64,000 bases of DNA from positions 1 to 64,000 of the forward strand of contig JAUHQD010000014.1 of assembly GCA_030418115.1 (NCBI GenBank). Reading direction: 5' to 3'. This document shows positions 28,436-59,359 of the stretch, piece by piece (position 1 is the stretch's first letter; every line of letters begins with the position of its first letter). A program made the translations under genes and the position numbers. The notes beneath the pieces are model-generated. The model did no database searches and was not told the origin of the DNA. It saw nothing but the letters and a program-made list of their open reading frames with translations. This DNA is from Alteromonadaceae bacterium BrNp21-10. Its GTDB lineage: Bacteria > Pseudomonadota > Gammaproteobacteria > Enterobacterales > Alteromonadaceae.

Positions 28436-29074
28436 TCACGATTTAATTTCTATCGGCCAGATAAAACGTGCCCGTACTGGGGCTCCATCTTTCTGAGGGG
28501 CGCTAAAACGACTATCCCGTACCATTTTATTTATTGCTAATACCAGTTCTGGATAAGGGTTTTCAATAATATCCAGCAAGCTAATTTTGCCATCCACATC
28601 GATCACCACATCCAGCTTAATTAATACTTTGTCGATACCACGGCGGGATAAACTCGCCGGTAACTTGACTCGCAATGGCGTTAATAAGCTCGGAAAACTA
28701 TCCAAATCATTGAGTTCAAACGCTTGCCAATCAACATTTAGCGTCTGCCATTGTGGTTGACTCGAGGTAATTTGTGGCTCATCGGGCAATTCAATATCGA
28801 TATCAGGTTGTGGCACATCAATCACCTGCAATTGCGCTCCCAAACCTTGCACCTGCAAAGTCATATTTTGATTTGTCTGAGCTTGCTGCACTTGCGGCGG
28901 TGGCGGAGGTGGCGGCGGAGGTGAGGAAATGGACACTTCACGGATAGTCAGTGAATCATCTGGCATTTCGATTAATCCTCGACCTAGCCACATCACGCAT
29001 AATGCCAAACTCAACAACACAATACTGAATAGCATCGCCAGCCCTTGCAGCCTCATGGGGTGTTTTTGACTCAT
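28436..29074 (-). CDS. tonB: TonB-family energy transducer (cluster 1)
   Basis: A 212-residue TonB2-type protein. It has one N-terminal membrane helix (about 10-32), a short Pro run (SSPPPPPPPPPQVQQ), then a C-terminal TonB domain with IDKVLIKLDVVIDVDGKISL and the ARFIWPIEI end. The Pro-rich spacer is much shorter than in E. coli TonB, as is usual for TonB2. It overlaps exbD by 4 bp (ATGA). It should link the ExbBD motor to the TonB-dependent receptor encoded divergently. Confidence 0.85.
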   Translation of the reverse strand: MSQKHPMRLQGLAMLFSIVLLSLALCVMWLGRGLIEMPDDSLTIREVSISSPPPPPPPPPQVQQAQTNQNMTLQVQGLGAQLQVIDVPQPDIDIELPDEPQITSSQPQWQTLNVDWQAFELNDLDSFPSLLTPLRVKLPASLSRRGIDKVLIKLDVVIDVDGKISLLDIIENPYPELVLAINKMVRDSRFSAPQKDGAPVRARFIWPIEIKS

Positions 29075-29478
29075 CCGTTTTTAGTCGCCAAGTTGACGGT
29101 TTTAGCACCGGCTAATTTTGCTTCATCGATAACTTCAATAAGCTGTTGTGCCGACACATTTTTATCGGCTTGCACCACCACAGGACGCTCATCATTACGC
29201 AATAACTGCTCTAGGGTGCCACGTACACCGGCAACACCAATTTGGTTACCATCGAAAAACACTTGTCCGTCATCGGTTATCGCCAATAAAATTACGGTCT
29301 GCTCTAACTGTTGGGCGGTAATGGATTGCGGTTTATCTACCTCTACGCCGGTTTCTCGCACAAATACCGTGGTCACAATAAAGAAAATCAACAGAATAAA
29401 TACCACATCCAGCAACGGTGACATGTCGATGCCGCTTTGCTGGCTCTGCTCAATTTTTTGTTGCAAGCGATTCTGCAT
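29071..29478 (-). CDS. exbD: ExbD (biopolymer transport protein, cluster 1)
   Basis: A 135-residue ExbD/TolR protein. Its single membrane helix carries the proton-path Asp in MSPLLDVVFILLIFFIV. The periplasmic domain (VVVQADKNVSAQQLIEVIDEAK) is typical. It starts one base after exbB and overlaps tonB. Part of the ExbBD-TonB motor that energises outer membrane receptors. Confidence 0.92.
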   Translation of the reverse strand: MQNRLQQKIEQSQQSGIDMSPLLDVVFILLIFFIVTTVFVRETGVEVDKPQSITAQQLEQTVILLAITDDGQVFFDGNQIGVAGVRGTLEQLLRNDERPVVVQADKNVSAQQLIEVIDEAKLAGAKTVNLATKNG

Positions 29479-29479
29479 G

Positions 29480-29869
29480 TCAGCTATTCCGGTCTTGCAA
29501 TGGGTTGCAGTTGTCTAATTGATTACGATAGCCACGCAGTAAATTGTGTAATAACCAAGCAGGTACTGCGCACACTAATCCCATCTGGGTGGTGAGTAAT
29601 GCATCGGATATACCGCCACTAAGTAATGCGCCGCTGGCACCTTGTGTAGCAATACCAGCAAAACAAGCCAGTAAACCAATAATAGTGCCGAGTAACCCCA
29701 ATAATGGCAGTGCACCAATCAGTATTAGAATGAAATCCTCTTGGCTAGCATCGTCAGTATAAACATCCGTTTTAAGTTGTAAGAACTTAACAAACAATTG
29801 CTGATAACAAGCGATGGTCAGTAGCGCAATCGCCCAACACACCCAATTTGCAAGTAACTCGTTGATCAT
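29480..29869 (-). CDS. exbB: ExbB (MotA/TolQ/ExbB proton channel, cluster 1)
   Basis: A short 129-residue ExbB2-type protein with the core motif LPLLGLLGTIIGLLACFAGI and a second helix GLVCAVPAWLLHNLL, so it has the proton-channel part of the family but no large cytoplasmic loop. It overlaps the long ExbB-like gene by 4 bp. It is noticeably shorter than its paralogue at 53897-54418 (173 residues). Confidence 0.88.
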   Translation of the reverse strand: MINELLANWVCWAIALLTIACYQQLFVKFLQLKTDVYTDDASQEDFILILIGALPLLGLLGTIIGLLACFAGIATQGASGALLSGGISDALLTTQMGLVCAVPAWLLHNLLRGYRNQLDNCNPLQDRNS

Positions 29870-31194
29870 GCTGAGGCCCTCTGGGTTGTGTCGGTAACAG
29901 GCGCAGCAATAGGCTGGATATTTTTCGCACTTAATTGGCTAATTTGCAGGGCAAAACTTTCTAATTGTTGATAATAAGATTTAGCTCGTCTAGACAACAA
30001 AGCGTTCAAAATCAGCGCAGGAATAGCCACCACTAAACCTAATTCGGTAGTGATCAGTGCTTGCGCAATACCACCAGAAACCACTTCTGGATCCCCAGAA
30101 CCAAATAAGGTCATCATTTTGAAGGTTTCGATCATGCCACTCACCGTGCCAAGTAGACCTAACAAGGGTGAAATAGACGCCACCACGGCAATCGCGCCAA
30201 GCCAACGTTCCAAGGTAAACTTATTACTTTGCAAGCAATTGAAGAGTAAATCATCACGATGAGACACATTATCTTCGCCATGAGCAATCTGGATTAATGA
30301 CTTTTGCACACCAGTGATACCCGCAACCGCGGCTGCACTCGTCTTTTGCGTGAGTAACTGTTGTAATTTAAGGCTGGAAAGTGCCTGTATTCTAGGCAAA
30401 CGGAATAACTGCCAAGACTTAGCAATGGCGATCACCAAGGCAAATAACGCGAAGAACAAAATCGGCACCGCCCACAAGCCGCCTTTACTCACATGCTCAA
30501 GGGCAGACTCTTGATGTTGCGCCATGGCAATGGCTTTACTGTTACTGGGATCAAAGGTCACGCTACCGTGTGCTGATTGCTTTAACGTTTCTAAGCCTTG
30601 CTGTTGTGCACCATCAAACTCCAGCACGACTTTTAAGCCGTTGGCGGTTTTTTCTAATACGCCAGCGCTGTTATCGTCGACATACCAACTCAATGGCCCA
30701 AGTTGTAGCACACTGACTGGTTGAATAATGCCAGAGGGTAAGATCACCGATTGTGATTGCCACTGAGGGGACAGAGTGCTTTGCACACTTGCAACTAACT
30801 GCAAAATTTCGCTGGCAGCTGCTGCGCTATTTTCTGACAGATGCTGTTGTCGGACGAATCGCGTGAGTAAATTTTGTTGGTAATTGTGCTGCTGACGCCA
30901 ACCATCTAAACGCTTTTCTAATTGGCTCAAACCTAAGGTATTTTCATCTGCCAAGCGACGAGTAACTGCAGTTTTCTCGCGCAGTGCCAGCACTTTATCT
31001 TGCATTGCTCTGAGTTTTTTAGCTAACTGACTCCGCTCATTAGCCACACTTTTTTGCGTGCGCTGCAAGTTCAGCTGTGCGGTTTTGATGTCGGCCAATA
31101 ACGAGGCTTGAATATTCTCTTGGGCTGCAATAGGTGCACTGCCAATAATACCCACCACACCTACCAACAAAATGAAGACTGCCGTTAATTTCAT
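29866..31194 (-). CDS. TtpC-type long ExbB-like protein (cluster 1)
   Basis: A 442-residue MotA/TolQ/ExbB protein with a long exported N-terminal part: signal peptide, coiled coil (about 30-130), then a beta-rich domain. TM segments lie near 240-260, 330-360 and 380-400, with SPLLGLLGTVSGMIETF and GLVVAIPALILNALL. This is the layout of TtpC, a fourth subunit needed by Vibrio TonB2 systems. It overlaps both neighbours by 4 bp. Confidence 0.85.
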   Translation of the reverse strand: MKLTAVFILLVGVVGIIGSAPIAAQENIQASLLADIKTAQLNLQRTQKSVANERSQLAKKLRAMQDKVLALREKTAVTRRLADENTLGLSQLEKRLDGWRQQHNYQQNLLTRFVRQQHLSENSAAAASEILQLVASVQSTLSPQWQSQSVILPSGIIQPVSVLQLGPLSWYVDDNSAGVLEKTANGLKVVLEFDGAQQQGLETLKQSAHGSVTFDPSNSKAIAMAQHQESALEHVSKGGLWAVPILFFALFALVIAIAKSWQLFRLPRIQALSSLKLQQLLTQKTSAAAVAGITGVQKSLIQIAHGEDNVSHRDDLLFNCLQSNKFTLERWLGAIAVVASISPLLGLLGTVSGMIETFKMMTLFGSGDPEVVSGGIAQALITTELGLVVAIPALILNALLSRRAKSYYQQLESFALQISQLSAKNIQPIAAPVTDTTQRASA

Positions 31195-31973
31195 TGACCT
31201 GCTCCATTTCGATTAAGCGGTAATGACAATTGCACAAACTCCGCTTGCTGTTGTTTTTCATAAATGGCGATAGCTTTAGCAATCTGCGCTTTATCCACAT
31301 CCGGCTTAAATTGCCATTGCCAGCCGTTATCAGTAGCAAAACCAACACCGGCATAGGACTGATCCGCACTGGCAAACCATGCCATGGATACGCCCAAATA
31401 AAGTTGTTTAACCATTATTTGCTGGCCTTCTGGGCTTGTAATCGATGCTTCGTTAAGGACGATGCGTTGACTAAATTCCATTAACTTAGATAATTTTGCC
31501 AGCGCCACTTGCAGCTGATTTGAAGTGTCGGCAGTGGCATCAACAGCCATACTTTGCTGTTGCCAACTGCTTAATAATACTGGCGGTAACTGCGCTTCCA
31601 ATACCTGAAGTTGAATCGTTAGCTTATCGAGAAAACTCTCTGTTTGCTGCTGCTCTACTTCCAATGTGGTTTGCTCTGCCAGCAATTTGGCCCGTTGCTG
31701 GTCAACCTCTGAGTTATTGCCCTGACTTTTATTCAACACCGACTGTAACTGCTCATTTTCAGCTGCGAGCAAGTCTAAACGCTGAAGTAATAACGGTTGC
31801 TGTTGCTGCCACTCATCTTGCAACGCCGCTGTTTGACGTTCGATATTAATCCACTGAGTAACCAGTTTTTCGGTTTCATTAGCTGTTTGAGCCTGAGTCG
31901 GACTAATTAACAAACAAAAGAGTAAACCGCCTATTTGAGGAATAACGGAATATTTCTGCAATAACACTATCAC
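31191..31973 (-). CDS. DUF3450 family periplasmic protein (cluster 1)
   Basis: A 260-residue exported coiled-coil protein; DUF3450 is the usual first gene of TonB2-type clusters. GTG 31973 is chosen because AGGA lies 7 nt upstream. ATG 31979 would be only one base from AGGA. The signal peptide ends SPTQAQ; heptad repeats cover about 30-130 and a C-terminal alpha/beta part follows (EASITSPEGQQIMVKQLYLG). A Fur-like site covers its start region. Confidence 0.78.
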   Translation of the reverse strand: MIVLLQKYSVIPQIGGLLFCLLISPTQAQTANETEKLVTQWINIERQTAALQDEWQQQQPLLLQRLDLLAAENEQLQSVLNKSQGNNSEVDQQRAKLLAEQTTLEVEQQQTESFLDKLTIQLQVLEAQLPPVLLSSWQQQSMAVDATADTSNQLQVALAKLSKLMEFSQRIVLNEASITSPEGQQIMVKQLYLGVSMAWFASADQSYAGVGFATDNGWQWQFKPDVDKAQIAKAIAIYEKQQQAEFVQLSLPLNRNGAGQ

Positions 31974-31981
31974 TATCATTT
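31960..31981 (-). promoter_or_regulatory. Fur-like box over the start of TonB cluster 1
   Basis: On the minus strand two GATAGT hexamers in tandem, then G and TTATTG, resemble the 6-6-1-6 Fur pattern GATAAT-GATAAT-C-ATTATC. The site covers the start codon and lies beside the ribosome site, so binding here would overlap the translation start region rather than the promoter core. Confidence 0.45.
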
Positions 31982-32085: not shown

Positions 32086-32219
32086 AGATTATTTTTATAA
32101 TAGCCTTTCAACCACTCAAATACGGGTTCGTTTGGCACAAAGGTGATATGAAAGCGACATAAGTACGCTATCAACTCCCCCACCAAATAACACACAACAC
32201 TTTAATTATGGAGAAAATA

Positions 32220-34388
32220 ATGAGGCATTTCAGCCGTTTAACTAACTTCCAAAAATCCGCTTTAGCATTAGCAGTAACGGCATCTATACCGTCATTTGTT
32301 TATGCCGCTGAAGATGTCAGGGAATTACCCGTTGCCCAAGCTCAGGCACAAACAGAACAAGATTACAAAGTGGATCAATCCACTTCCCATAAAAATCCCC
32401 TTGCGCTCGTTGATACTGCCAAAACCATTAACATCGTGCCGCAATCGGTGATGAAAGATCGCAACGTCGATAACCTTCGTGATGCATTACGCAGTGTGCC
32501 AGGCATTTCAATGGCAGCTGGTGAAGGCGGTGCTCCTCCAGGGGATAGCATGACTATTCGAGGTTTTGATGCCAGTAACGATATTTTTATCGATGGTATT
32601 CGTGATTTGGCCGGTTACAGCCGTGATATGTTTAATACCGAAGCCGTCGAAGTGAGCAAAGGCCCTGGCTCAACCAGTACAGGACGCGGAAGCGCCGGTG
32701 GTAGCATCAACCTACAAACGAAAACGGCTAAATTAGAAGAATTTGCTGATATCACTGCTCGCATAGGTTCAGAAGGTGATTATCGCGCCACCTTAGACTT
32801 CAATACCCAAATCAGCGCAAGCACCGCGCTACGTATTAATGCACTCACTGAAGATGGTGACGTTCCCGGACGTAATGATGTGAATAACGGCAGCAATGCC
32901 ATTGCCGCATCTTTATCCAGCCAATTATCAGCGGAAACCTTATTAACGGTTAATGCAGACATGATTAAACAAGATAATACCCCCGATTATGGTATTCCTT
33001 GGGTGAGTGCCAGCGTTACCGAAGGGCCATTAGCGGATTACGCAGGCACCGCGCCACCCGCTGATTTTGATAACTTCTATGGAAACTTACACCGTGACTT
33101 TGAAGATGTGGACGCAAAATCCGTCACTGTAAAAGTGGAACATCAACTGAGTGAATCGACTAAACTTCGAGCCCAAGCGAGAAGCGCATCGGTTGACCGT
33201 TTAAATCTCGTTACCGCACCGCGCTTTATCGATGTCAGTAGCTCGACGGATATTCGTATGAGTGATGAAAAAACCCGTGATACCAGCAACAGTATCAACA
33301 TCGTTCAGCTTGATCTTGAAGGCACCTATCAAACTGGCTCAGTAATCCACAATGTGGTTGCTGGTGTCGAAATTTCTCAGGAAAAATTTGAGCGTTGGGG
33401 TTATGTAGCCTTAGTCCCTGATAACCTCAATGATGAGCCAGGTTTAAATGATTTGTATAATCCAGATCCCTATATGGATTTCACTGGCGAATATGGCCGT
33501 GACGGCAGTATGACCTACGCCGACGGTGATACTAAAGCGGTTTTTGTACTGGATAATATTCAACTCAATAGCCAATGGATAGTGGGATTAGGACTACGTT
33601 GGGATGACTTTGAAACCCAATATCATAACGATGACGAAGACTTATCCTCCTTCGTAGAAATATCTAGCAGTGATATCAGTTGGAACGCCAGCGTCAATTA
33701 TAAACCTGCAGAAAATGGCAGTATTTATCTTGCTCATGGTACCTCCTTTACCCCAGCTTCCACTAATCTTACTGGTGGTTCGGGTGGCAATCAAAGTACT
33801 TTAGATCCAGAGAAAAATGAAAGCCTTGAGTTAGGTACTAAGTGGGAATTACTCAACAAAATGCTATTGGTTAACGCTGCTATTTTTCGCACGGTTAAAA
33901 CCGATGGCCAATACAGAGATCCAGACGACCGCAACCTTTATCACTTTGATGGTGAAGAAAAAGTCACTGGTTGGGAACTAGGTGCAACCGGACGTTTATC
34001 TGAAGCGCTATCAATTACCGCTGGTTATACCTATCAAGACAGCGAAATTGTTGCAGGTGCCGAAAACACCATTGGCTTCGCCTTTGCCAGAGCGCCTAAA
34101 CATTCCGCTAGCTTATGGGGCCGTTATGACTTCAACAAAGAATTGTCTGCTGGTTTAGGTTTGGAATATGTGGGTGAACGTTACAACGGTAATAGTGACA
34201 CCCGCCGTTACGCAGATTCTTACACTATTTTCGACATGATGGTGACTTATCAGGCCACAGAAAAGTTAGCCCTTCGCGTGAATGGTAGCAACCTTACCGA
34301 TGAAGATTACATTGACCAACTCGGTGGTGGACACTTTATTCCGGGTGTAGGCCGTCATTTATCTCTAAGTGCTAACTACAGTTTCTAA
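32220..34388 (+). CDS. TonB-dependent catecholate-type siderophore receptor (Fiu/PiuA-like)
   Basis: A 722-residue outer-membrane receptor. ATG 32220 is favoured over 32208 because GGAG lies 7 nt before it. Signal peptide, then the plug (DTAKTINIVPQSVMKDRNVDNLRDAL, DSMTIRGFDASNDIFIDGIR), then a 22-strand barrel ending in the aromatic SLSANYSF. No classical TonB box is obvious near the mature N-terminus. The plug and the neighbouring piuC place it with Fiu/PiuA receptors for monomeric or catechol ferric siderophores. A Fur box precedes it. Confidence 0.9.
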   Translation: MRHFSRLTNFQKSALALAVTASIPSFVYAAEDVRELPVAQAQAQTEQDYKVDQSTSHKNPLALVDTAKTINIVPQSVMKDRNVDNLRDALRSVPGISMAAGEGGAPPGDSMTIRGFDASNDIFIDGIRDLAGYSRDMFNTEAVEVSKGPGSTSTGRGSAGGSINLQTKTAKLEEFADITARIGSEGDYRATLDFNTQISASTALRINALTEDGDVPGRNDVNNGSNAIAASLSSQLSAETLLTVNADMIKQDNTPDYGIPWVSASVTEGPLADYAGTAPPADFDNFYGNLHRDFEDVDAKSVTVKVEHQLSESTKLRAQARSASVDRLNLVTAPRFIDVSSSTDIRMSDEKTRDTSNSINIVQLDLEGTYQTGSVIHNVVAGVEISQEKFERWGYVALVPDNLNDEPGLNDLYNPDPYMDFTGEYGRDGSMTYADGDTKAVFVLDNIQLNSQWIVGLGLRWDDFETQYHNDDEDLSSFVEISSSDISWNASVNYKPAENGSIYLAHGTSFTPASTNLTGGSGGNQSTLDPEKNESLELGTKWELLNKMLLVNAAIFRTVKTDGQYRDPDDRNLYHFDGEEKVTGWELGATGRLSEALSITAGYTYQDSEIVAGAENTIGFAFARAPKHSASLWGRYDFNKELSAGLGLEYVGERYNGNSDTRRYADSYTIFDMMVTYQATEKLALRVNGSNLTDEDYIDQLGGGHFIPGVGRHLSLSANYSF

Positions 34389-43196: not shown

Positions 43197-44105
43197 TTAA
43201 AATTTGTGCTCTAAACCAACCGCTAACCAACTCTTATCGTTGGCGTTGTCCAAGTCTTGTGAGGTATACCACGCCAAGGCTTTAGTATTTTTACCTAGCT
43301 TGTAATCGACACCGATGGATGCGGTGCTGTCATCTTCTAGGGTTTGATACTGACCTTTCAATGTGATCTTGCCCATGGCATAAGCAGCGCTCACTAGTAC
43401 ACCATCTTCACTCACTCCACTAGCCACTGCTTCTTGCTTATGAATAACCGCACCAACGGTTAAGTCATCAAATTTGGCCTGGGCTGACACTCGAGTGGAA
43501 TCGTAACCTTTCATATCCATCTCTGTGGCGAGCGCAACATAAAACTGGCTTTTCTTTAAATTGCTATCACCATAGGATACCGAAATTGATTGAGCGTCTT
43601 CGCCGCCTTTTTCATCTTCAGCAACATAGGTGATACCAACACTAAAACCATTAAACGACGGTGATATATAGGTCACGCTATCACTCATGCGGTTCTCACC
43701 TGCCCACAAGTTTTTAAAATCAGCTTCATAATCATTAAATTGATCAATCTTGCCTTGTGACCTTTTCAACATGGTGTCGTTGCGGCCAATCATGATGCTA
43801 CCGGCATTGCCTTTTAAACCAATGTACTGATTACGAGATTTAACGTTATCGCCATCAGAGCTGTCAGCCAAGTCAACGCCAAATTCAAAAACGTAGAATG
43901 CTGTTAAGCCATCTTCAAGATCGTAATCCCCTTTAAAGCCAAGTCGGGAATTATTGCTTTTTACCTCAGAAAAGGATCCTTCGCCATCATCAGTGCTTTG
44001 CAAAGTAACATTACCTTTACCGTAAACCGTAAGCGGATCCGCAGTAGCATTGGCAGAAACAAAAGCCAGCATAATGGCAGAAAGTAGTAAGCGTTGATTT
44101 TGCAT
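43197..44105 (-). CDS. Phosphate-starvation-type outer membrane porin
   Basis: A 302-residue general porin (Gram-negative porin family). ATG 44105 has GAGGA upstream and yields a signal peptide ending ANATADPLTVYGK. The barrel repeats (LTVYGKGNVTLQ, LTAFYVFEFGVDL, GSIMIGRNDTMLK) end with Phe in KSWLAVGLEHKF. No constriction-zone residues of PhoE/OprP can be assigned by eye. Five Pho half-sites upstream point to PhoB control, so uptake of phosphate or phosphorylated compounds is likely. A role as a general porin cannot be excluded. Confidence 0.88.
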   Translation of the reverse strand: MQNQRLLLSAIMLAFVSANATADPLTVYGKGNVTLQSTDDGEGSFSEVKSNNSRLGFKGDYDLEDGLTAFYVFEFGVDLADSSDGDNVKSRNQYIGLKGNAGSIMIGRNDTMLKRSQGKIDQFNDYEADFKNLWAGENRMSDSVTYISPSFNGFSVGITYVAEDEKGGEDAQSISVSYGDSNLKKSQFYVALATEMDMKGYDSTRVSAQAKFDDLTVGAVIHKQEAVASGVSEDGVLVSAAYAMGKITLKGQYQTLEDDSTASIGVDYKLGKNTKALAWYTSQDLDNANDKSWLAVGLEHKF

Positions 44106-44159
44106 AAGGAATTTCCTCAGATCTCTGTTGTGAAGAATAATAGTTCGTTGATGCATGGC

Positions 44160-44245
44160 ACTATGCATTCTTTTTATGACAGTTTTATTACATTGTGACA
44201 GTTATTTGTTATTTTTTTGACAGTTTAATGACTTTATTGTGACAG
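44160..44245 (-). promoter_or_regulatory. Pho box array and -10 of the porin promoter
   Basis: Minus strand: proximal box ATGTAAT-AAAA-CTGTCAT (44176-44193), then exactly 10 bp to a -10 CATAGT (44160-44165). Upstream, half-sites start at 44195, 44206, 44217, 44228 and 44239 (plus-strand GTGACAG, TTGTTAT, TTGACAG, ATGACTT, GTGACAG), all 11 bp apart. This is PhoB's 7+4 repeat. The start would be near 44153. Confidence 0.85.
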
Positions 44246-47082: not shown

Positions 47083-47769
47083 TTACTTTACCGAAAAGCG
47101 GTATCCTGAACCGCGCACGGTTTGAATTAACTTGTCATGACCGTGCAGTGAAATGGCTTTGCGCAGACGACGAATATGCACATCGACGGTGCGGTCTTCC
47201 ACATACACATTGGTGCCCCACACATAATCTAACAAACGCTCACGGCTATAAACCCGCTCTGGGTGAGTCATGAAAAAATGTAGCAGCTTAAATTCCGTTG
47301 GCCCCATGTCTAATGATTCCTCATTCGCGCTCACGCGATGAGATACCGGATCCAATTTCAAACCATTAAATTCTACTTCATCATCCAAACTGGTGGGTGA
47401 AACTCGGCGTAACACCGCCTTGATTCTGGCCATCAACTCTTTAGGTGAAAACGGCTTAGTAATATAATCATCGGCGCCCACTTCCAGCCCTTTGATTTTA
47501 TCGTCTTCTTCACCACGAGCGGTCAACATGATCACAGGGATATTACGGGTAAACTCATTACTTTTAAGTTTTTTAGCAAACTGGATGCCATTACCACCGG
47601 GTAACATCCAATCTAATAGAATAAGATCAGGCAACGGATCGACGACCTTTTCTAAGCCGCTCTCATAGTCTTCCGCTTCGATAGCTTCAAAGCCATGTTG
47701 CTCCACAATAAAACCGAGCATTTCTCGAATAGGTGCTTCGTCTTCGACGACTAGAATGCGCGTTGACAT
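47083..47769 (-). CDS. phoB: Phosphate regulon response regulator PhoB
   Basis: A 228-residue OmpR-family regulator. The receiver domain has acidic ED at 10-11, phospho-acceptor D53 in [11 protein letters not shown] and Lys in YITKPF. A winged-helix domain (about 130-225) has the recognition-helix region [17 protein letters not shown]. 229 residues in E. coli. Its partner phoR is 9 kb away on the other strand rather than next to it. A Pho box promoter upstream indicates autocontrol. Confidence 0.95.
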
Positions 47770-47799: not shown

Positions 47800-47833
47800 A
47801 TTATCATGACTTTTTATGACACTAATATGACAG
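47800..47833 (-). promoter_or_regulatory. Pho box and -10 of phoB
   Basis: Minus strand: CTGTCAT-ATTA-GTGTCAT (47816-47833), exactly 10 bp, then GATAAT (47800-47805). The start would be near 47793, leaving about 24 nt of leader. Same layout as the pstS and pstC promoters. Confidence 0.85.
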
Positions 47834-51453: not shown

Positions 51454-51475
51454 TAAAAACAGCGCCGCAAGGCGC
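51454..51475 (-). terminator. Intrinsic terminator of TonB cluster 2
   Basis: Minus strand: GCGCC, loop TTGC, GGCGC, then TGTTTTTA, directly after the TPR gene stop. Confidence 0.75.
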
Positions 51476-51478
51476 AAC

Positions 51479-52783
51479 TTAACTACCTACCCCATTCAAC
51501 AACAATGCATTTTGCTGCTCAGTATTCACGTACTTCTTCCATTGCTTAGCCATGCGCTCGCTTTGTTTGTAGCTTTCAGCTAAGGCTAGCGCATCGATGG
51601 AATCTTTGTAACGTTCTTGATTAAACAGCGCTAAACCTAAAACCAAATAAGCATTACCGGGGTTGGCTAACTCGCCTTTTTCTAAAGCTTGTTCGGTGGC
51701 TTGAATCGCTGCTGTCCAGTTTTCTAGATTAAGATGTAATTGCCCTAACTGCGCATGCAGTTCGCCGTTGTCGGCTAGTGAAGCAGCGGCCATGAGTACC
51801 GGAATGGCTTTTTCGTTTTCTTGTGCCAATGTCCATGATTGCGCTAAAAACTTCAAGTTACGTAAATTACGCTCTAACACACCTTCGTCCATTGCCTGGG
51901 TGATCAGGCTAGCACCTTTAAACGGCGCACCATGGTAGTAATACAATTGGGCTAAGTTATAGATATCGCTGGCACTTTTAATATAACCCTGTTGATAGGC
52001 ACTTTCTAAAATGGCCAGCTGTTTTTTCTCTTCACCTAACTCGCCATACATGCCGGCCAGCTGTGTCCAATATTGTGGTTGGTCATAGTGCTTGAGCATT
52101 TTCACCAATACATCTTTGACTTTTTCCGGTTGTTTTAACTCGTAATAAACTGCACGTTGCAATATATACCAATTTTCATCGGCAACACCATCAGGCTGTT
52201 GCTCCATCAGTGCAATGGCTTTGCTAATGTAACCCTCGGCTTTAGCGTAGCTTTTTTGTTGATACATGGCCTGAGCTTTTAAATAGTAATTGCTGGCGGG
52301 TATTTCGCCGGTATTCAGTTTTTCCCAACGATCTAAATAATCAATAGTTTTGTCGAAGTTGCCTTGCATCATGTGTAGTTGCGACAAACTAAACAAGGTA
52401 GTCAGTTCAAAGGGCTGCGGAATAGGGTCTTCTTCTACCACTTTTTCAAAAAAGTTCAGGGCTTGTGGGTAATTTTCTTGTTGATAGTAAATAAAGGCAT
52501 AGAAATTCCACAGCATGGCGCGCTCATAACTGTTCATGGAGCTTATCTTTGCCTGCACATTGTCCAGTGCCAAAATCGCTTCACCTACCTTGTCTTCATC
52601 GGCCAATGTTTGCGCTCGGGCAAATTGATCGTAGACCTTGGCACGAACAGCTGGTACCTGTTTGGTTTTAACGTTAGAAGCATCCGATTCTGCGGCATTA
52701 ACGCAAATTGGCAATAATATGGATAAGCCTGACATCAACATCAATACCGCAACGAAGTGACTTAATTGTTTTTTACTATTCAT
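51479..52783 (-). CDS. TPR protein of TonB cluster 2
   Basis: A 434-residue exported TPR protein with a signal peptide (ending VNAAES) and repeats such as ILALDNVQAKISSMNSYERA and YQQENYPQALNFFEKVVEE through to ALFNQERYKDSIDALAL. It occupies the same last place as the TPR protein of cluster 1 but is not closely similar by eye. Probably a periplasmic accessory of the TonB complex. Confidence 0.82.
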   Translation of the reverse strand: MNSKKQLSHFVAVLMLMSGLSILLPICVNAAESDASNVKTKQVPAVRAKVYDQFARAQTLADEDKVGEAILALDNVQAKISSMNSYERAMLWNFYAFIYYQQENYPQALNFFEKVVEEDPIPQPFELTTLFSLSQLHMMQGNFDKTIDYLDRWEKLNTGEIPASNYYLKAQAMYQQKSYAKAEGYISKAIALMEQQPDGVADENWYILQRAVYYELKQPEKVKDVLVKMLKHYDQPQYWTQLAGMYGELGEEKKQLAILESAYQQGYIKSASDIYNLAQLYYYHGAPFKGASLITQAMDEGVLERNLRNLKFLAQSWTLAQENEKAIPVLMAAASLADNGELHAQLGQLHLNLENWTAAIQATEQALEKGELANPGNAYLVLGLALFNQERYKDSIDALALAESYKQSERMAKQWKKYVNTEQQNALLLNGVGS

Positions 52784-52793
52784 GTTACGCCCC

Positions 52794-53399
52794 TTAATTC
52801 ATCTTGAAAGTGATGCGGTTCTGTACCCCGGCCACTTCCGCTTCTTCGCCATTAATCACCCGAGGTTTATATTTGAACTTCAATGCGGCTTCGACGGCTG
52901 CATCTTCAAACATGCCTTGAGGATCGGATTCAATTACCTGCGGGTCCTTGACAGTGCCTTGCTTAGTCACGGTAAATTCAACAATCACGTAACCTTCAAT
53001 ACCCCGTTGCTGTGCGCGGCGTGGATACACCGGTGCAACTTTAACAATAGGTAAATATTCACCATCAGAAGACTGCAACGACATGCCGCCTTCCAAGCCA
53101 GCGGCAATACTCATTTCTGCCGAGAACGACATACCAGTACCCGCACCATCCTCTGTAGGCGACTGCATCTGCGGTTGCTCCATCGGTGGTGGTGGCTCTT
53201 TTGGCTTAGGTGGTTTTTTCGGCTTACGGTCTTTGGTCATTGCTTCTTCGTCTTGCTTTAAACGAATAAAATCCAGTACGTTACCTTGGGCCGGCTCCAC
53301 AGATTCACCGCCACCACTTTGGATCAATGCCTGCATCAGGTAAAACAATCCAAGGGTGATGGCTGCCGCCAGTATTAGGGCTATCAGAATTCTTGACAT
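52794..53399 (-). CDS. tonB: TonB-family energy transducer (cluster 2)
   Basis: A 201-residue TonB2-type protein: one N-terminal helix (about 5-25), a Pro/Lys spacer (RKPKKPPKPKEPPPPME), then a TonB C-terminal domain (YPRRAQQRGIEGYVIVEFTV, VIESDPQGMFEDAAVEAALKF, with YKPRVI near the end). It follows exbD by 3 bp. Part of the phosphate-side cluster described in the findings. Confidence 0.9.
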   Translation of the reverse strand: MSRILIALILAAAITLGLFYLMQALIQSGGGESVEPAQGNVLDFIRLKQDEEAMTKDRKPKKPPKPKEPPPPMEQPQMQSPTEDGAGTGMSFSAEMSIAAGLEGGMSLQSSDGEYLPIVKVAPVYPRRAQQRGIEGYVIVEFTVTKQGTVKDPQVIESDPQGMFEDAAVEAALKFKYKPRVINGEEAEVAGVQNRITFKMN

Positions 53400-53402
53400 G
53401 AT

Positions 53403-53810
53403 TTACGGCTCTTGTGCAGCAATCGATACATCAAACACACCGGCCGCCCGCGCTGAATCCATCACTTTAATTAACACCTCAGTGGTGGCTTTTTTGTCAG
53501 CTTGGATCACCACAGTACCTTGCGGATTTTCCGCATGCAGGCGCTCGATATTCGCTTGTACCGCACGGGTATCAATGCGACGTTTGTTGATCCAAATTTC
53601 ACCTTTATCGCTAATCGCCACTAAAATATTGGCGCGCTCTTTTTTAACCGCGGTAGCGGCTTCTGGGCGATTGACGTCAATACCAGACTCTTTAACAAAA
53701 GAGGCGGTAACAATGAAGAAGATCAACATAATAAACACCACGTCGAGCATGGGCGTTAAATCGATGGTGGCTTCTTCTTCATCTACTAAATTCTGAAAAT
53801 GCTGTTTCAT
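53403..53810 (-). CDS. exbD: ExbD (biopolymer transport protein, cluster 2)
   Basis: A 135-residue ExbD with the membrane helix LTPMLDVVFIMLIFFIV holding the proton-path Asp, and a periplasmic domain ending VSIAAQEP. It has the same length as its paralogue at 29071-29478. An 86-bp gap separates it from exbB, unlike the 1-bp gap in cluster 1. Confidence 0.93.
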   Translation of the reverse strand: MKQHFQNLVDEEEATIDLTPMLDVVFIMLIFFIVTASFVKESGIDVNRPEAATAVKKERANILVAISDKGEIWINKRRIDTRAVQANIERLHAENPQGTVVIQADKKATTEVLIKVMDSARAAGVFDVSIAAQEP

Positions 53811-53896
53811 TTACTTATTCTCATTCAATCATGCTGTGTGAATTAACTGGCTCGGTCTAATTTAGTTGTTCATATTTTAAACGTAATGTTTCAGAC

Positions 53897-54418
53897 TTAA
53901 TGTTCCAAGCTCAGGGCATCTTCAATATGGGTTTTCTCGGTTTTCACGCGGCGGGCTAACCATGCCGAGGCAAACACCCCAGATAACGCACCCACCATGC
54001 CGGCCATAGTCGGGATAGTGGCTTTTGACACTCCCGATGCCATGGCTCTGGCATTGCCCGAACCTAAACTAGCCATACCATCAAAAACTTCGATCATGCC
54101 GGTTACTGTTCCCATCAACCCCAACAACGGACATAACGCCACTAATGCCTGAATCACCGGAATACTTTGATTCAAGCGGATGGTTAAACGCGAAATCAGC
54201 ATTTGCCGAATTTGCTCGGCATTCCATGAAGATTTGTCCGTTCTGGCCTGCCATAGCGCCAGTGTTTGCTGCTTCATCTGCCGATGACCAATAAACACAT
54301 ACAAAGCGCGTTCGAGGATCAGTAACCACATCACAAATATCAGTACTCCGATCACCAGCAGCACTTGGCCGCCGGTTTCGGTAAAGTCGCGAATGGCTTC
54401 TAAAAACTCAATCATCAC
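53897..54418 (-). CDS. exbB: ExbB (MotA/TolQ/ExbB proton channel, cluster 2)
   Basis: A 173-residue ExbB2-type protein with helices near 17-37 and the motif ALVALCPLLGLMGTVTGMIEVF, then GNARAMASGVSKATIPTMAGMV. It lies 2 bp after the ttpC-like gene. Longer than the cluster 1 copy (129 residues). Confidence 0.92.
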   Translation of the reverse strand: MMIEFLEAIRDFTETGGQVLLVIGVLIFVMWLLILERALYVFIGHRQMKQQTLALWQARTDKSSWNAEQIRQMLISRLTIRLNQSIPVIQALVALCPLLGLMGTVTGMIEVFDGMASLGSGNARAMASGVSKATIPTMAGMVGALSGVFASAWLARRVKTEKTHIEDALSLEH

Positions 54419-54420
54419 AA

Positions 54421-55788
54421 TTAGCCTTGCTCAGCACGCTCGGCAATGATGCCCGAGGCTTGTTCTTGCAAAATAAACACGATGTTTTTACTGCGGGTAT
54501 TTAACATCGCATAAAGTAACGTCGTTGGAATGGCCACAACCAAGCCCAGTACCGTAGTCACTAGTGCTGTTGAAATACCACCCGCCATGATTTTGGGGTC
54601 ACCGGTACCGTATAAGGTAATGTCTTGGAATACGCGGATCATGCCGGTTACTGTACCTAGTAAGCCCATTAACGGCGCTACAACAGAGATAATCTTAATC
54701 GCGGTTAAACTACGACCTAGCTTAGGCACTTCTCGCAATATCGCTTCGGTGAGTTTCAGCTCTAAGGTTTCGGTATCCGCTTGAGGGAATTCTTCCTTAA
54801 CCTTAATCACACGGCCTAGTGGGTTGTCACTTTGCGCCTTTGATTGTTTCAATTGACGATTTACTTTATTGCGGGCAATAGTCAGGCTGATTAAACGCTC
54901 TAGTGATAAAAACAAACCTACAGCACCAACGATTAGGATGATGTAACCCACTTCACCGCCTTGCTCAACACGCTCTTGATAAGAAGGCTCTTGCACTTTC
55001 AGACGTAAAATACTGCCACCCGTTGGGTCTAAACCAAATTCCACCAGCTCACCATTGGATTGTTGAATCGCTTCGGCGGTATCCACATAGCGAGTGGCTG
55101 GTTGGCGCACCAATTCAGCGACGTTTTGGCTATCGATTAGGTACTCTAAGTACTTACCATCGGCGACTAAAGCGAACGAACCAACACGTACCACTTCTTT
55201 ATTCACTTTACTGCCATCGGCTTCCACTACATCGGTAGTGAATTTAGTGACTTTGCCCGAGGCGGTCATTTCGCGCTGCATTTCAAACCACACACGTTCG
55301 ATCTCTTCAATAGACGCTAGCTTTGAGCTTTGCCCCATTTTTTGCGCCAAGTTATCTAAAAACTCGGCACGACCCGGAATTTGCGCCGAAATAACTGAGT
55401 TCTGAAATTTACTTTTGGTATCGCCAGCCACTTGTTGCAGCACACCAAATAGCTCTTTCAACGATCCTAAACGCTTACCTAGGGCTTCGTTTAAATCGGC
55501 TAATTTAAATTCATTTTCTTCAAACTGAGTTTCTAGTTTTTCACTGCTAGCCAGTTGACCATCACGACCGGCAATGGCTTGTTTTAATAAACGGTCTTGT
55601 TCGTTAACCTTGGCCGCGAATTCTTGCTCACGCTGTTGGTTTTGCTGACCCTGAAGGGTTTGACCATTTTCTAATTGCTTTAACAGCGCATCCAAATCTA
55701 ATGGTTTGCTTTGTGCCATCGCACTACTGCTTACTAGCAACGCCATCAGGGTGGTGATCATTTTGATTTTTTGAGTTATCTGTTTCAT
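54421..55788 (-). CDS. TtpC-type long ExbB-like protein (cluster 2)
   Basis: A 455-residue paralogue of the gene at 29866-31194: signal peptide, coiled coil (about 30-110), a periplasmic region, then the ExbB core (VAPLMGLLGTVTGMIRVFQ and GLVVAIPTTLLYAML). Same order and length class as TtpC of Vibrio TonB2 systems. Confidence 0.88.
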   Translation of the reverse strand: MKQITQKIKMITTLMALLVSSSAMAQSKPLDLDALLKQLENGQTLQGQQNQQREQEFAAKVNEQDRLLKQAIAGRDGQLASSEKLETQFEENEFKLADLNEALGKRLGSLKELFGVLQQVAGDTKSKFQNSVISAQIPGRAEFLDNLAQKMGQSSKLASIEEIERVWFEMQREMTASGKVTKFTTDVVEADGSKVNKEVVRVGSFALVADGKYLEYLIDSQNVAELVRQPATRYVDTAEAIQQSNGELVEFGLDPTGGSILRLKVQEPSYQERVEQGGEVGYIILIVGAVGLFLSLERLISLTIARNKVNRQLKQSKAQSDNPLGRVIKVKEEFPQADTETLELKLTEAILREVPKLGRSLTAIKIISVVAPLMGLLGTVTGMIRVFQDITLYGTGDPKIMAGGISTALVTTVLGLVVAIPTTLLYAMLNTRSKNIVFILQEQASGIIAERAEQG

Positions 55789-55794
55789 GCTGAA

Positions 55795-56565
55795 TTAATC
55801 CGTCAATGCGACTGGCAGGGTTAATAAATTAGGCGCGAGTTGCTTCTTAGCAATGCGCAGACCTTTAGTAACTTGAGTACGGTAGGAAGAATCTAGGGTT
55901 TCCCACTGATTGGATTTTTTATTCCAAATACCCTGCAACATAGCGTCGCGGGTTTGGTAAACCAGCGCGGTACGACCGATACGTAGAAAATCTACATCGC
56001 GCTCTTGACCTTCAATGCTGTGTAAACCGCTATAAGATTCAATAGTACGGCCGTAGTCCATTTCCACCTGATAGGCTTCCATCACGCGACGAAATTTTTC
56101 AGAAGGCTCAACGTCGGCTCTGTCCATCATTTCTCGTAAACCGGCAATCCGCTTTTGACGTTCTTCAGGTAAAAACGGCATATCCAGTTGTACAAACTGC
56201 TCTAAGCCATCAACCATGCGGATCATCAACGGCGTTATTTGACGTTCAATAACGCTGACTTCATCAATAGACTCATTAAGTGCGGCCATTTCATCTAATT
56301 GATTTTGAATTTGCTTACGTAGCTGGTTGTTATAAACCGTTAAGCCCGCCGTTTCTTTGTTGACGGTTTTGAACTGTTGTAACTTGGAATCGATAGTATT
56401 GCTTATACCATCAATTTTTTTTTGTGATTGGTTCGCTGACTGATTGATGTTGTCGGCCGCTTTAACAACCGGCTTTAAATACGCATCTTCCTGAGCATTG
56501 ACGCTTACCGCCACTGTTAAAGCAGACGCCAAGCAGGCAACGGAAAGTGTTTGCATTAACCTCAT
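55795..56565 (-). CDS. DUF3450 family periplasmic protein (cluster 2)
   Basis: A 256-residue exported protein, first gene of cluster 2. ATG 56565 has AGGG 8 nt upstream; the signal peptide ends SVNAQED. A coiled coil (about 35-100) is followed by the DUF3450 part (VQLDMPFLPEERQKRIAGLR, VEMDYGRTIESYSG). Function unknown, but the family is bound to TtpC/ExbBD/TonB clusters. Its promoter has a Pho box. Confidence 0.85.
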   Translation of the reverse strand: MRLMQTLSVACLASALTVAVSVNAQEDAYLKPVVKAADNINQSANQSQKKIDGISNTIDSKLQQFKTVNKETAGLTVYNNQLRKQIQNQLDEMAALNESIDEVSVIERQITPLMIRMVDGLEQFVQLDMPFLPEERQKRIAGLREMMDRADVEPSEKFRRVMEAYQVEMDYGRTIESYSGLHSIEGQERDVDFLRIGRTALVYQTRDAMLQGIWNKKSNQWETLDSSYRTQVTKGLRIAKKQLAPNLLTLPVALTD

Positions 56566-56619
56566 TATTCTTACCCTACATTGACAGACCAACGGGATGT
56601 CGGACTCAAAACGAAGGCT

Positions 56620-56653
56620 AGTCTAGGAGGAATTTGTGACAGTTTTATTAAAC
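56620..56653 (-). promoter_or_regulatory. Pho box and -10 of TonB cluster 2
   Basis: Minus strand: GTTTAAT-AAAA-CTGTCAC (56636-56653), exactly 10 bp, then a -10 TAGACT (56620-56625). Start near 56613, about 48 nt before ATG 56565. Spacing and the AAAA spacer match the pstS, pstC and porin promoters, though the distal half-site is weak. Confidence 0.7.
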
Positions 56654-56787: not shown

Positions 56788-58098
56788 ATGATTAATAACT
56801 ATTCTTGGCGCACCCCCATTAAGAATCTGATTTTATATTTGGCTTTCTGGATCATTTTTGGTTGGGTTATAGGCAAACTGCTGCTCAGTTTGGTTATTGG
56901 CTTATCGGCCTTAGTCGCCTGGCATTATTATTACCAACGCCAATTGTTTACTTGGTTATGGCGTACCCGGCAGCTTCATCCACCCAATGCCACTGGCGTC
57001 TGGAGTGCCATCTTCGATGGTATTTACAAGCAGCAAAAAGATAATCGCCGCCGTCGCCGGCAGTTAGGCGATTTAATTAAGCGCTTTCGCGAAGCGGCAC
57101 AAGCTATGCCTGATGCCACTGTCATTTTTGACCATGACAACACCATTATCTGGTGTAATAAACTCGCTAGACAATTACTCGGATTAAAATCATCGGATGT
57201 AGGTCAGCGTTTGAATAACCTGATCCGCAGTCCGGCATTTGAGGCCTATCAGCAACAAGGTGATTTTAAAGATCCGATTATTTTGCCGTCTCCGTTAAAT
57301 TCTCAATCGGTGTTAGAAATTCGCATCATTCCCTATGCAGAGCAAATGCTGTTTATTGCCAGAGATGTCACCAAACTCAAGCAATTAGAAAGTATGCGTC
57401 AAGACTTTGTGGCCAACGTATCCCATGAGCTACGCACACCGCTAACGGTCATGCTCGGTTATTTAGAAATGATGGAAGACCTACAACAAACACCGCCGAA
57501 GATGATTGAGAAAGCTTGCAAAGAAATGACTTCGCAAACCGAACGCATGCGTGATTTAGTTGAGCAGTTATTGGTATTATCGAAAATTGAATCCAGTGGC
57601 GATGATGTTTTTAAACATACCGTCAATATTGGTTCAATGTTGGCACAAGTAAAAGCAGAGGCCAGCTCTCTCAATCAAACCAAGCACCATCAAATCAGCT
57701 TTGATGTTGACCCCAGTCTTATTGTTTATGGTATTGAGCTCGAGCTAAGAAGTGCCATGTCTAACTTGGTGTTCAACGCCATTAACTATACGGCAGATAA
57801 AGGTGAAATTAACGTAGTGTGGAAAAAGACCACGAAAGGCGCTTTGTTTTCGGTCACCGATAATGGCGAAGGTATTTCACAGACTCATTTAAGCAGAATT
57901 ACCGAACGTTTTTACCGTGTAGATAAGGCTCGCTCCCGTAAAACCGGTGGTAGTGGTTTGGGCTTATCTATTGTTAAACATGTCTTAGCTCGCCATTATT
58001 CAGACTTAAAAATTACCAGTCAATTAAGTAAAGGCAGCACCTTTAGCTTTGTTCTTCCAGACAATATGATCCCCGAAGACAGCCCCAAAGAAGTGTAA
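56788..58098 (+). CDS. phoR: Phosphate regulon sensor kinase PhoR
   Basis: A 436-residue membrane histidine kinase (E. coli 431). Two N-terminal helices (about 13-47), a basic linker, a PAS domain (about 95-190), then HisKA with H213 in NVSHELRTPLTVMLG and a HATPase with NLVFNAINYT, DNGEGI and GGSGLGLSIVKH. It should phosphorylate PhoB in low phosphate and take its signal from the Pst transporter and, where present, PhoU. It leads towards pstS. No Pho box facing phoR is seen. Confidence 0.95.
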   Translation: MINNYSWRTPIKNLILYLAFWIIFGWVIGKLLLSLVIGLSALVAWHYYYQRQLFTWLWRTRQLHPPNATGVWSAIFDGIYKQQKDNRRRRRQLGDLIKRFREAAQAMPDATVIFDHDNTIIWCNKLARQLLGLKSSDVGQRLNNLIRSPAFEAYQQQGDFKDPIILPSPLNSQSVLEIRIIPYAEQMLFIARDVTKLKQLESMRQDFVANVSHELRTPLTVMLGYLEMMEDLQQTPPKMIEKACKEMTSQTERMRDLVEQLLVLSKIESSGDDVFKHTVNIGSMLAQVKAEASSLNQTKHHQISFDVDPSLIVYGIELELRSAMSNLVFNAINYTADKGEINVVWKKTTKGALFSVTDNGEGISQTHLSRITERFYRVDKARSRKTGGSGLGLSIVKHVLARHYSDLKITSQLSKGSTFSFVLPDNMIPEDSPKEV

Positions 58099-58160: not shown

Positions 58161-58194
58161 GTGTAATAAAAGTGTCATCTAAGCTCTGTATATT
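58161..58194 (+). promoter_or_regulatory. Pho box and -10 of pstS
   Basis: GTGTAAT-AAAA-GTGTCAT (58161-58178), exactly 10 bp, then TATATT (58189-58194); a third repeat-like GCTCTGT (58183-58189) follows in the 11-bp register. Start near 58201. Reverse-facing sites GTGACAA (58121) and ATGACAG (58143), 22 bp apart, lie further upstream. Confidence 0.85.
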
Positions 58195-58251
58195 GCTCCT
58201 AAAGAAGATGTGGCAGTACGCCAATACAGCAATATATCAATGGAGAAACCC

Positions 58252-59217
58252 ATGAAATTAAAGCAACTTATCACCGCATTAGGCTTAACGTTAACCACCA
58301 CGTTCGCTGCCAACTCATTTGCAGTGGACGCCGATGTACCGGAATACGAAAAAGTATCCGGCATTTCTGGCAGCTTATCATCAGTCGGCTCAGACACTTT
58401 GGCCAACATGATGACCTTTTGGGCGGAAGAATTTAAACGCACCTACCCTAATGTTAACTTCCAGATTCAAGCTGCGGGTTCTTCCACTGCGCCGCCGGCA
58501 TTAACTGAAGGCACGACCAACTTTGGTCCAATGAGCCGTAAAATGAAATCCAAAGAGATTGAATCTTTTGAAAAACATTTTGGCTATAAACCTACTGCGG
58601 TACGTGTTGCCATTGATGCGTTAGCAGTTTTTGCCCATAAAGATAACCCTATTGAAGGTCTGACAATTGCACAAGTTGATGCGATTTTCTCTTCAACCCT
58701 TAAATGTGGTGGTAACACCCCCGTTGAGCGTTGGAGCGATATTGGCTTAACCGGAGATTGGGCAAATAAAGACGTGCAATTGTTTGGTCGTAACTCGGTA
58801 TCCGGTACTTATGGTTACTTTAAACAAAAAGCTTTATGTAAAGGCGATTTCAAAAATAGTGTTAACGAACAACCCGGTTCTGCTTCTGTAGTGCAATCGG
58901 TATCTGCGTCACTTAACGCCATTGGTTATTCTGGTATTGGTTATATGACATCAGGCGTAAAAGCGGTGCCACTAGCCAAAAAAGGCACTGACTATATTGA
59001 CGCCAATATGGAAAATGCCGTTACCGGTAAGTATCCGCTTTCTCGCTTCTTGTACGTTTATGTCAACAAGCATCCTAACAATGCTTTAGCGCCAAAAGAT
59101 GCACAGTTCCTCAAAATGATACTGTCACAAACCGGTCAGCATGTGGTTGAAAAAGATGGCTATATTCCATTACCTGCTAAGGTTGTTAACGCTGAATTGG
59201 CAAAACTTGGCTTATAA
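58252..59217 (+). CDS. pstS: Periplasmic phosphate-binding protein PstS
   Basis: A 321-residue binding protein. ATG 58252 has GGAG upstream and opens a clear signal peptide (cleaved near NSFAVDA). Phosphate-site segments include [33 protein letters not shown] and [12 protein letters not shown]. High-affinity phosphate capture for the Pst ABC transporter. It has its own terminator, so pstCAB use a separate promoter. Confidence 0.95.
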
Positions 59218-59325: not shown

Positions 59326-59359
59326 TTGTAATAAAAGTGTCACAATTAAACTCTATACT
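59326..59359 (+). promoter_or_regulatory. Pho box and -10 of pstCAB
   Basis: TTGTAAT-AAAA-GTGTCAC (59326-59343), exactly 10 bp, then TATACT (59354-59359); a third half-site-like AAACTCT (59348-59354) keeps the 11-bp register. Start near 59366, 35 nt before pstC. Confidence 0.85.

Follow-up and report, generated by a model that had tools for sequence, protein, structure and literature searches.

The stretch analysed here (the window) comprises 64,000 nucleotides of Alteromonadaceae bacterium BrNp21-10 and corresponds to positions 1–64000 of contig C6 in a 4.2-Mb draft genome of the family Alteromonadaceae. On its minus strand it carries a six-gene TonB operon, which probably encodes a TonB2-type motor under PhoB control that supplies energy to a receptor for phosphorus scavenging. 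The PHO wiring of the operon throughout the family and its pairing with a lipoprotein gene and a TonB-dependent receptor gene suggest powered uptake of a phosphorus source, not of iron.

The TonB operon and its promoter

The operon consists of six minus-strand open reading frames (ORFs; 51479–56565) with the Pfam domains DUF3450, MotA_ExbB (twice), ExbD, TonB_C and TPR. The gene order is ttpB(DUF3450)-ttpC-exbB-exbD-tonB-ttpD(TPR), and with a long ExbB-like TtpC between the DUF3450 protein and ExbB the operon belongs to the TonB2 (TtpC-containing) type. The intergenic gaps are tight with the exception of 86 bp ahead of exbD, and a terminator-like hairpin (51475–51462) is situated directly 3' of the last gene. 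The nearest named relative of the window TtpB is that of Neptunicella marina (82%). The features of the region are:

51462..51475, minus strand: terminator-like hairpin after ttpD
51479..52783, minus strand: ttpD-like TPR protein, 434 amino acids (TPR families)
52794..53399, minus strand: tonB-like, 201 amino acids, proline-rich linker (PF03544; TIGR01352)
53403..53810, minus strand: exbD-like, 135 amino acids (PF02472)
53897..54418, minus strand: exbB-like, 173 amino acids (PF01618)
54421..55788, minus strand: ttpC-like, long MotA/TolQ/ExbB protein, 455 amino acids (PF01618)
55795..56565, minus strand: ttpB-like, DUF3450 periplasmic protein, 256 amino acids (PF11932, E=1.7e-89; tree)
56620..56625, minus strand: -10 element TAGACT, 10 bp after the PHO box (TATCCT in most relatives)
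56636..56653, minus strand: PHO box GTTTAATAAAACTGTCAC of the TonB operon (matrix and pattern; conserved in orthologs)
56788..58098, plus strand: phoR, divergent from the operon (PF11808)
58161..58178, plus strand: PHO box of pstS (yardstick)
58246..59217, plus strand: pstS (TIGR02136)
59326..59343, plus strand: PHO box of the pstC gene (yardstick)
47816..47833, minus strand: PHO box of phoB (yardstick)
47083..47769, minus strand: phoB (Response_reg and Trans_reg_C)
44176..44193, minus strand: PHO box of the porin gene (yardstick)
43197..44168, minus strand: porin, likely in the Pho regulon (PF13609)

Upstream of the ttpB start codon (ATG at 56565) the promoter reads GTTTAATAAAACTGTCAC, then 10 bp, then TAGACT. 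The PHO box (7-4-7 with an 11-bp repeat) occupies the -35 position, and the same 10-bp distance from the box to the -10 element is found at the porin, pstS, pstC and phoB boxes. The first-pass annotation of the window had described the six genes with these domains and a promoter layout shared with pstS, pstC, porin and phoB, and both descriptions are borne out by Pfam and by the box geometry. It had also placed the operon between phoB and phoR. The operon does adjoin phoR, but the two are divergent, and phoB is separated from the operon by three other ORFs. To call it a second TonB operon was an understatement, as the genome contains six TonB_C and four DUF3450 loci, one of them likewise in the window at about 28.4–32 kb. 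This other TonB/ExbB/TtpC/DUF3450-like operon (28436–31979, minus strand) is distant from the Pho-linked copy and is divergent from a TonB-dependent receptor gene (32208–34388, plus strand).

Conservation of the PHO box

We considered whether the PHO-like site could be a chance match and the operon lie outside the Pho regulon. With an E. coli PHO position matrix the box of the TonB operon ranked tied third of all window positions, behind the phoB and porin boxes. The pattern DTGTMATAAAASTGTCAY, modelled on the local boxes, occurred with at most one mismatch at five sites in the genome, namely at pstS, pstC, the porin gene, the TonB operon and C6:82477. At three mismatches the number of matches equalled that of the reversed pattern used as control, so weak matches mean little, and this is the point in favour of chance. 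Among the matches with two mismatches are those in the promoters of a polyphosphate-kinase-like gene (ppk, identified from the gene's own sequence) and of a glycerophosphodiesterase gene (GDPD, glpQ), as should be expected of a PHO box search. Two further sites with two mismatches lie upstream of genes for an EAL/GGDEF protein (C12:158878) and a methyl-accepting chemotaxis protein (C7:19858); phosphate control of cyclic di-GMP and chemotaxis is therefore possible.

The family-wide comparison argues against chance. TtpB homologs of the Alteromonadaceae fell into two groups, orthologs with about 50–82% identity to the window TtpB and TonB2 paralogs with about 35–40%. In a TtpB tree, which left out Vibrio sequences, the Pho-linked clade was well supported, separate from the paralog operons and outside the clade of the family's common TonB2 copy. 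The 300 bases upstream of ttpB were scanned with the E. coli matrix at a threshold of 13 bits. This threshold was reached by 29 of 30 near and 21 of 34 far orthologs (50/64), whereas no such box was found upstream of 21 paralog TonB2 operons (0/21) or of 6 intermediate homologs (0/6). For block-shuffled upstream regions the rate was 0.4% per promoter. Among named GTDB Alteromonadaceae loci, which overlap in part, by species, with the other ortholog set, 79 of 80 reached the same 13-bit threshold; the box typically lies at about -93, with TATCCT 10 bp behind it. The repeat TGTMA-N6-TGTMA (11-bp period) was present in 18 of 30 near and 9 of 34 far ortholog promoters, and in none of the 21 paralog promoters; at spacings other than N6 it occurred in at most one promoter each. 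Relatedness among the species means that the counts are not independent of one another; the paralog operons, which come from the same genomes, serve as a matched control. With position, spacing and distance to the -10 element conserved throughout the family and the paralogs clean, a chance match is hardly credible, and the PhoB control that had been proposed for the operon is supported by this footprint.

Linkage to phoR was rejected as evidence of such control, since phoR directly adjoins the ttpB operon in just 2 of the 80 named relatives. Some relatives have phoR or pstS-like genes farther upstream of the TonB operon.

The lipoprotein–receptor pair

The fifth strong site of the genome, C6:82477, reads TTGTAACAAAACTGTCAC, 10 bp, TAATCT and precedes a large lipoprotein gene, which is followed after 97 bp by a receptor gene:

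C6:79619-82471, minus strand: lipoprotein, about 930 amino acids, PHO-boxed; same contig as the operon, 23 kb from it
C6:76837-79521, minus strand: TonB-dependent receptor, 894 amino acids

The first-pass annotation had called for a genome scan for receptors with the Pho promoter layout and had proposed that the motor might drive receptors for phosphorylated organics or phosphate-bearing ligands; the C6 pair is a candidate of this kind, and in most relatives it lies directly upstream of the operon. In 18 of 20 loci examined, lipoprotein, receptor, ttpB, ttpC, exbB, exbD, tonB and ttpD are contiguous on one strand, a count in which a few exbD and tonB ORFs were left unlabelled by the automatic ORF choice; in two loci receptor and ttpB are separated by one or two ORFs. 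The 13-bit threshold was reached by PHO boxes before the lipoprotein gene in 13 of 20 cases and before ttpB in 16 of 18, and by none before the receptor gene in the 20 loci (0/20). In several of these loci the lipoprotein gene is closely preceded by phoR and a pstS-like gene. The receptor gene is situated immediately upstream of ttpB in 58 of the 80 named loci, and Pseudoalteromonas chromids contain the same genes with the motor first. A homolog of the lipoprotein was found in 36 of 39 family genomes with a ttpB ortholog versus 2 of 15 without one (p=5e-8, ignoring relatedness).

The Alteromonas macleodii plasmid pBGP9 (15166–30143) carries phoB, phoR, a pstS-like gene, a 2OG-Fe oxygenase gene, lipoprotein, receptor, ttpB, ttpC, exbB, exbD and tonB, with PHO boxes at phoB (18.3 bits), the lipoprotein gene (13.9 bits) and ttpB (15.8 bits). 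That a plasmid bears the module with PHO boxes of its own suggests horizontal spread. The window species has these parts scattered across about 40 kb surrounding phoB-phoR-pst. Taken together, the PHO footprint and the linked pair support the earlier proposal that the operon may be a phosphate-starvation TonB machine.

An Oar-like receptor as a possible second client

A gene for an Oar-like receptor (C4:22579-25590) is itself preceded by a strong PHO box, TTGTCACAAATTTGTCAT. Its CarboxypepD_reg domain (PF13620) at the N-terminus, followed by plug and barrel, places it in the Oar subclass. Among 38 receptor loci, whose direct upstream regions were compared, it is the sole one with a strong box, at 17.2 bits against 11.8 bits for the runner-up. 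A receptor at C12:59152 with a three-mismatch site was rejected as a client (9.7 bits).

The main client of a Pho-controlled motor could accordingly be this receptor, importing nucleic-acid or other phosphodiester fragments. In 20 Oar neighbourhoods 9 of 22 Oar promoters reached 13 bits versus 0 of 106 promoters of eight neighbouring gene families, and upstream of many Oar homologs in relatives there are PHO-like repeats. The C4 gene adjoins an Exo_endo_phos (endonuclease/exonuclease/phosphatase-family) gene, udk and nupC, and several relatives keep an Exo_endo_phos gene beside Oar despite the loss of other synteny. Because of the PHO box and this neighbour Oar may serve phosphodiester scavenging. 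We rejected udk and nupC as proof of nucleotide uptake, for mdh and argR are equally conserved there, none of them is PHO-boxed, and mere synteny may be the reason. Moreover, the Oar gene is unlinked to the ttpB operon, whereas the receptor of the C6 type is linked to it in most relatives, and clade-I Oar is present in just 38 of the 64 genomes carrying the operon. We regard the Oar-like receptor as unlikely to be the main client and demoted it to a possible second one.

Comparison with known systems

Gene set, order and domains (DUF3450 first, TPR last) are identical to those of the Vibrio vulnificus TonB2 system (TtpB2-TtpC2-ExbB2-ExbD2-TonB2-TtpD2), of which TtpB, TtpC and TtpD are essential parts (PMC6957404). 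That system is iron-regulated and serves siderophores (PMC6957404), whereas the window copy lies behind a PHO box and is accompanied by a lipoprotein and a receptor. V. vulnificus TonB3 is similar in that its operon is TonB2-like, has six genes, begins with a receptor gene and is unrelated to iron; it differs in being expressed in human serum or glycerol medium (PMC6957404). Since the gene order equals that of an iron-linked system and the genome has 40 TonB-dependent receptor barrels, the operon might be a spare general motor which under phosphate stress energises any receptor, iron receptors included. The genome, however, keeps a separate TonB2 paralog operon without a PHO box on C5, and the Pho-linked copy is a distinct TtpB clade locked to one lipoprotein–receptor pair. 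A spare general motor thus appears very unlikely.

ElpS (CC0170) of Caulobacter crescentus is a surface lipoprotein that is made in phosphate starvation and stimulates an extracellular phosphatase (PMC2996285). As in the window species, a phosphate-controlled lipoprotein gene lies beside a gene for a TonB-dependent receptor, CC0171, the control in our case being indicated by PHO boxes. Unlike the Caulobacter pair, which adjoins a type II secretion system, the window-type pair adjoins a dedicated TonB motor; in the Alteromonadaceae loci type II secretion genes were not neighbours of the pair, TonB motor genes or others being found instead. Behind the gene for an alphaproteobacterial homolog of the lipoprotein (37% over 88%) lie a receptor gene and type II secretion genes, as in Caulobacter. 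By gene layout and through this homolog, the pair resembles ElpS/CC0171. Sequence searches of the PDB with the lipoprotein, the Oar receptor and its nuclease-like neighbour gave no match.

Alternatively, the system might export, with receptor and motor serving to display the lipoprotein or a phosphatase or to set it free. A precedent is Myxococcus Oar, which together with the Ton system secretes the protease PopC (PMC6434023). The Oar-like receptor with its PF13620 domain belongs to the subclass for which this secretion was shown, ElpS is first anchored at the surface and then released (PMC2996285), and the Indioceanicola pair has type II secretion genes as neighbours. On the other hand, ElpS reaches the surface independently of the type II secretion system and its authors proposed a role in uptake for the paired receptor (PMC2996285). 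The pstS-like genes beside the lipoprotein gene in several loci also point to import. Export or release is in our view quite unlikely.

Two further systems are related in part. The PUSIII and PUSIV loci of Flavobacterium comprise FI/FII surface lipoproteins, described as distant relatives of ElpS, and TonB-dependent transporters, are induced by low phosphate and, in the case of PUSIV, lie beside phoBR; they differ in belonging to Bacteroidota with SusC-type receptors, and the part of the paper drawn on here notes no TonB/ExbBD motor (PMC8115612). In Pseudomonas aeruginosa the set exbB2-exbD2-tonB4 (PUMA3/VreI locus) is likewise tied to phosphate starvation, but via the sigma factor VreI; it has three genes, lacks TtpB/C/D, is uncharacterised and sits beside the Hxc type II secretion system and a two-partner secretion (TPS) system (PMC7035377). 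Phosphate-regulated receptors are known in Caulobacter (PMC11208175).

Proposed function

Several points weigh against a PhoB-controlled motor for phosphorus uptake. The PHO matrix was made from E. coli boxes, the first repeat of the TonB operon box deviates (GTTTAAT), and 14 of the 64 ttpB orthologs score below 13 bits. In the window species the lipoprotein and receptor genes lie apart from the TonB operon and a terminator-like hairpin (C6:79519-79620) is situated between them, so expression of the receptor under phosphate limitation is uncertain. The two genes are probably co-expressed, though not certainly given this hairpin, which possibly sets an excess of lipoprotein over receptor. In Caulobacter the paired receptor CC0171 is not phosphate-regulated (PMC2996285).

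From the sequences, which directly show the operon, the PHO boxes, their conservation and the linkage of the loci, we infer the following course of events, including transcription, coupling of this TonB to the C6 receptor, direction of transport and ligand. In the Pho regulon low phosphate activates PhoR/PhoB. Under phosphate starvation PhoR/PhoB would turn on the motor operon via the PHO box that replaces the -35 element, and PhoB would likewise turn on the lipoprotein gene and the receptor gene behind it. At the cell surface the lipoprotein, probably exposed there like ElpS, would most likely capture a phosphorus-bearing ligand or assist in its release. Driven by the proton motive force, the motor, in which TtpB, TtpC and TtpD would be essential parts by analogy with V. 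vulnificus, would pull on the plug of the C6 receptor. The ligand (phosphate or an organic phosphorus compound) or its phosphate would then enter the periplasm and be passed to PstSCAB, with the PHO-boxed Oar-like receptor as a possible second client.

The chances are about even that phoBR, the PstS-like protein, the ElpS-type lipoprotein, the receptor and their own six-part TonB motor constitute a self-contained, partly mobile module dedicated to phosphorus. The known links of TonB motors are mostly with iron, B12 and sugars, and porins are usually regarded as the route by which phosphorus passes the outer membrane. If such a module exists, phosphate or organic phosphorus would be pumped across the outer membrane of abundant marine copiotrophs; energised uptake of this kind would occur in common marine bacteria, the genes being conserved across the Alteromonadaceae and present on a plasmid as well. 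A testable transport role would follow for the ElpS/CC0171-type pair known from Caulobacter and Flavobacterium, and the operon would be an example of a TonB2-type motor re-dedicated to another nutrient. In the open-access literature we found no report of a PhoB-controlled TonB2/DUF3450 motor or of such a motor united with an ElpS-type lipoprotein and receptor, an absence that is weak evidence.

Other genes near phoU

Beyond the window, a 742-amino-acid Tat-type exported protein with no Pfam match is encoded directly 3' of phoU (C6:65087-67315). A few kb past phoU, C6:69406-75031 contains genes for a sigma factor of the extracytoplasmic function (ECF) type, a short ORF, a TonB-dependent receptor and a member of the sodium:sulfate-symporter family, with a DUF4886 gene beyond. 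This is likely a cell-surface signalling cluster.

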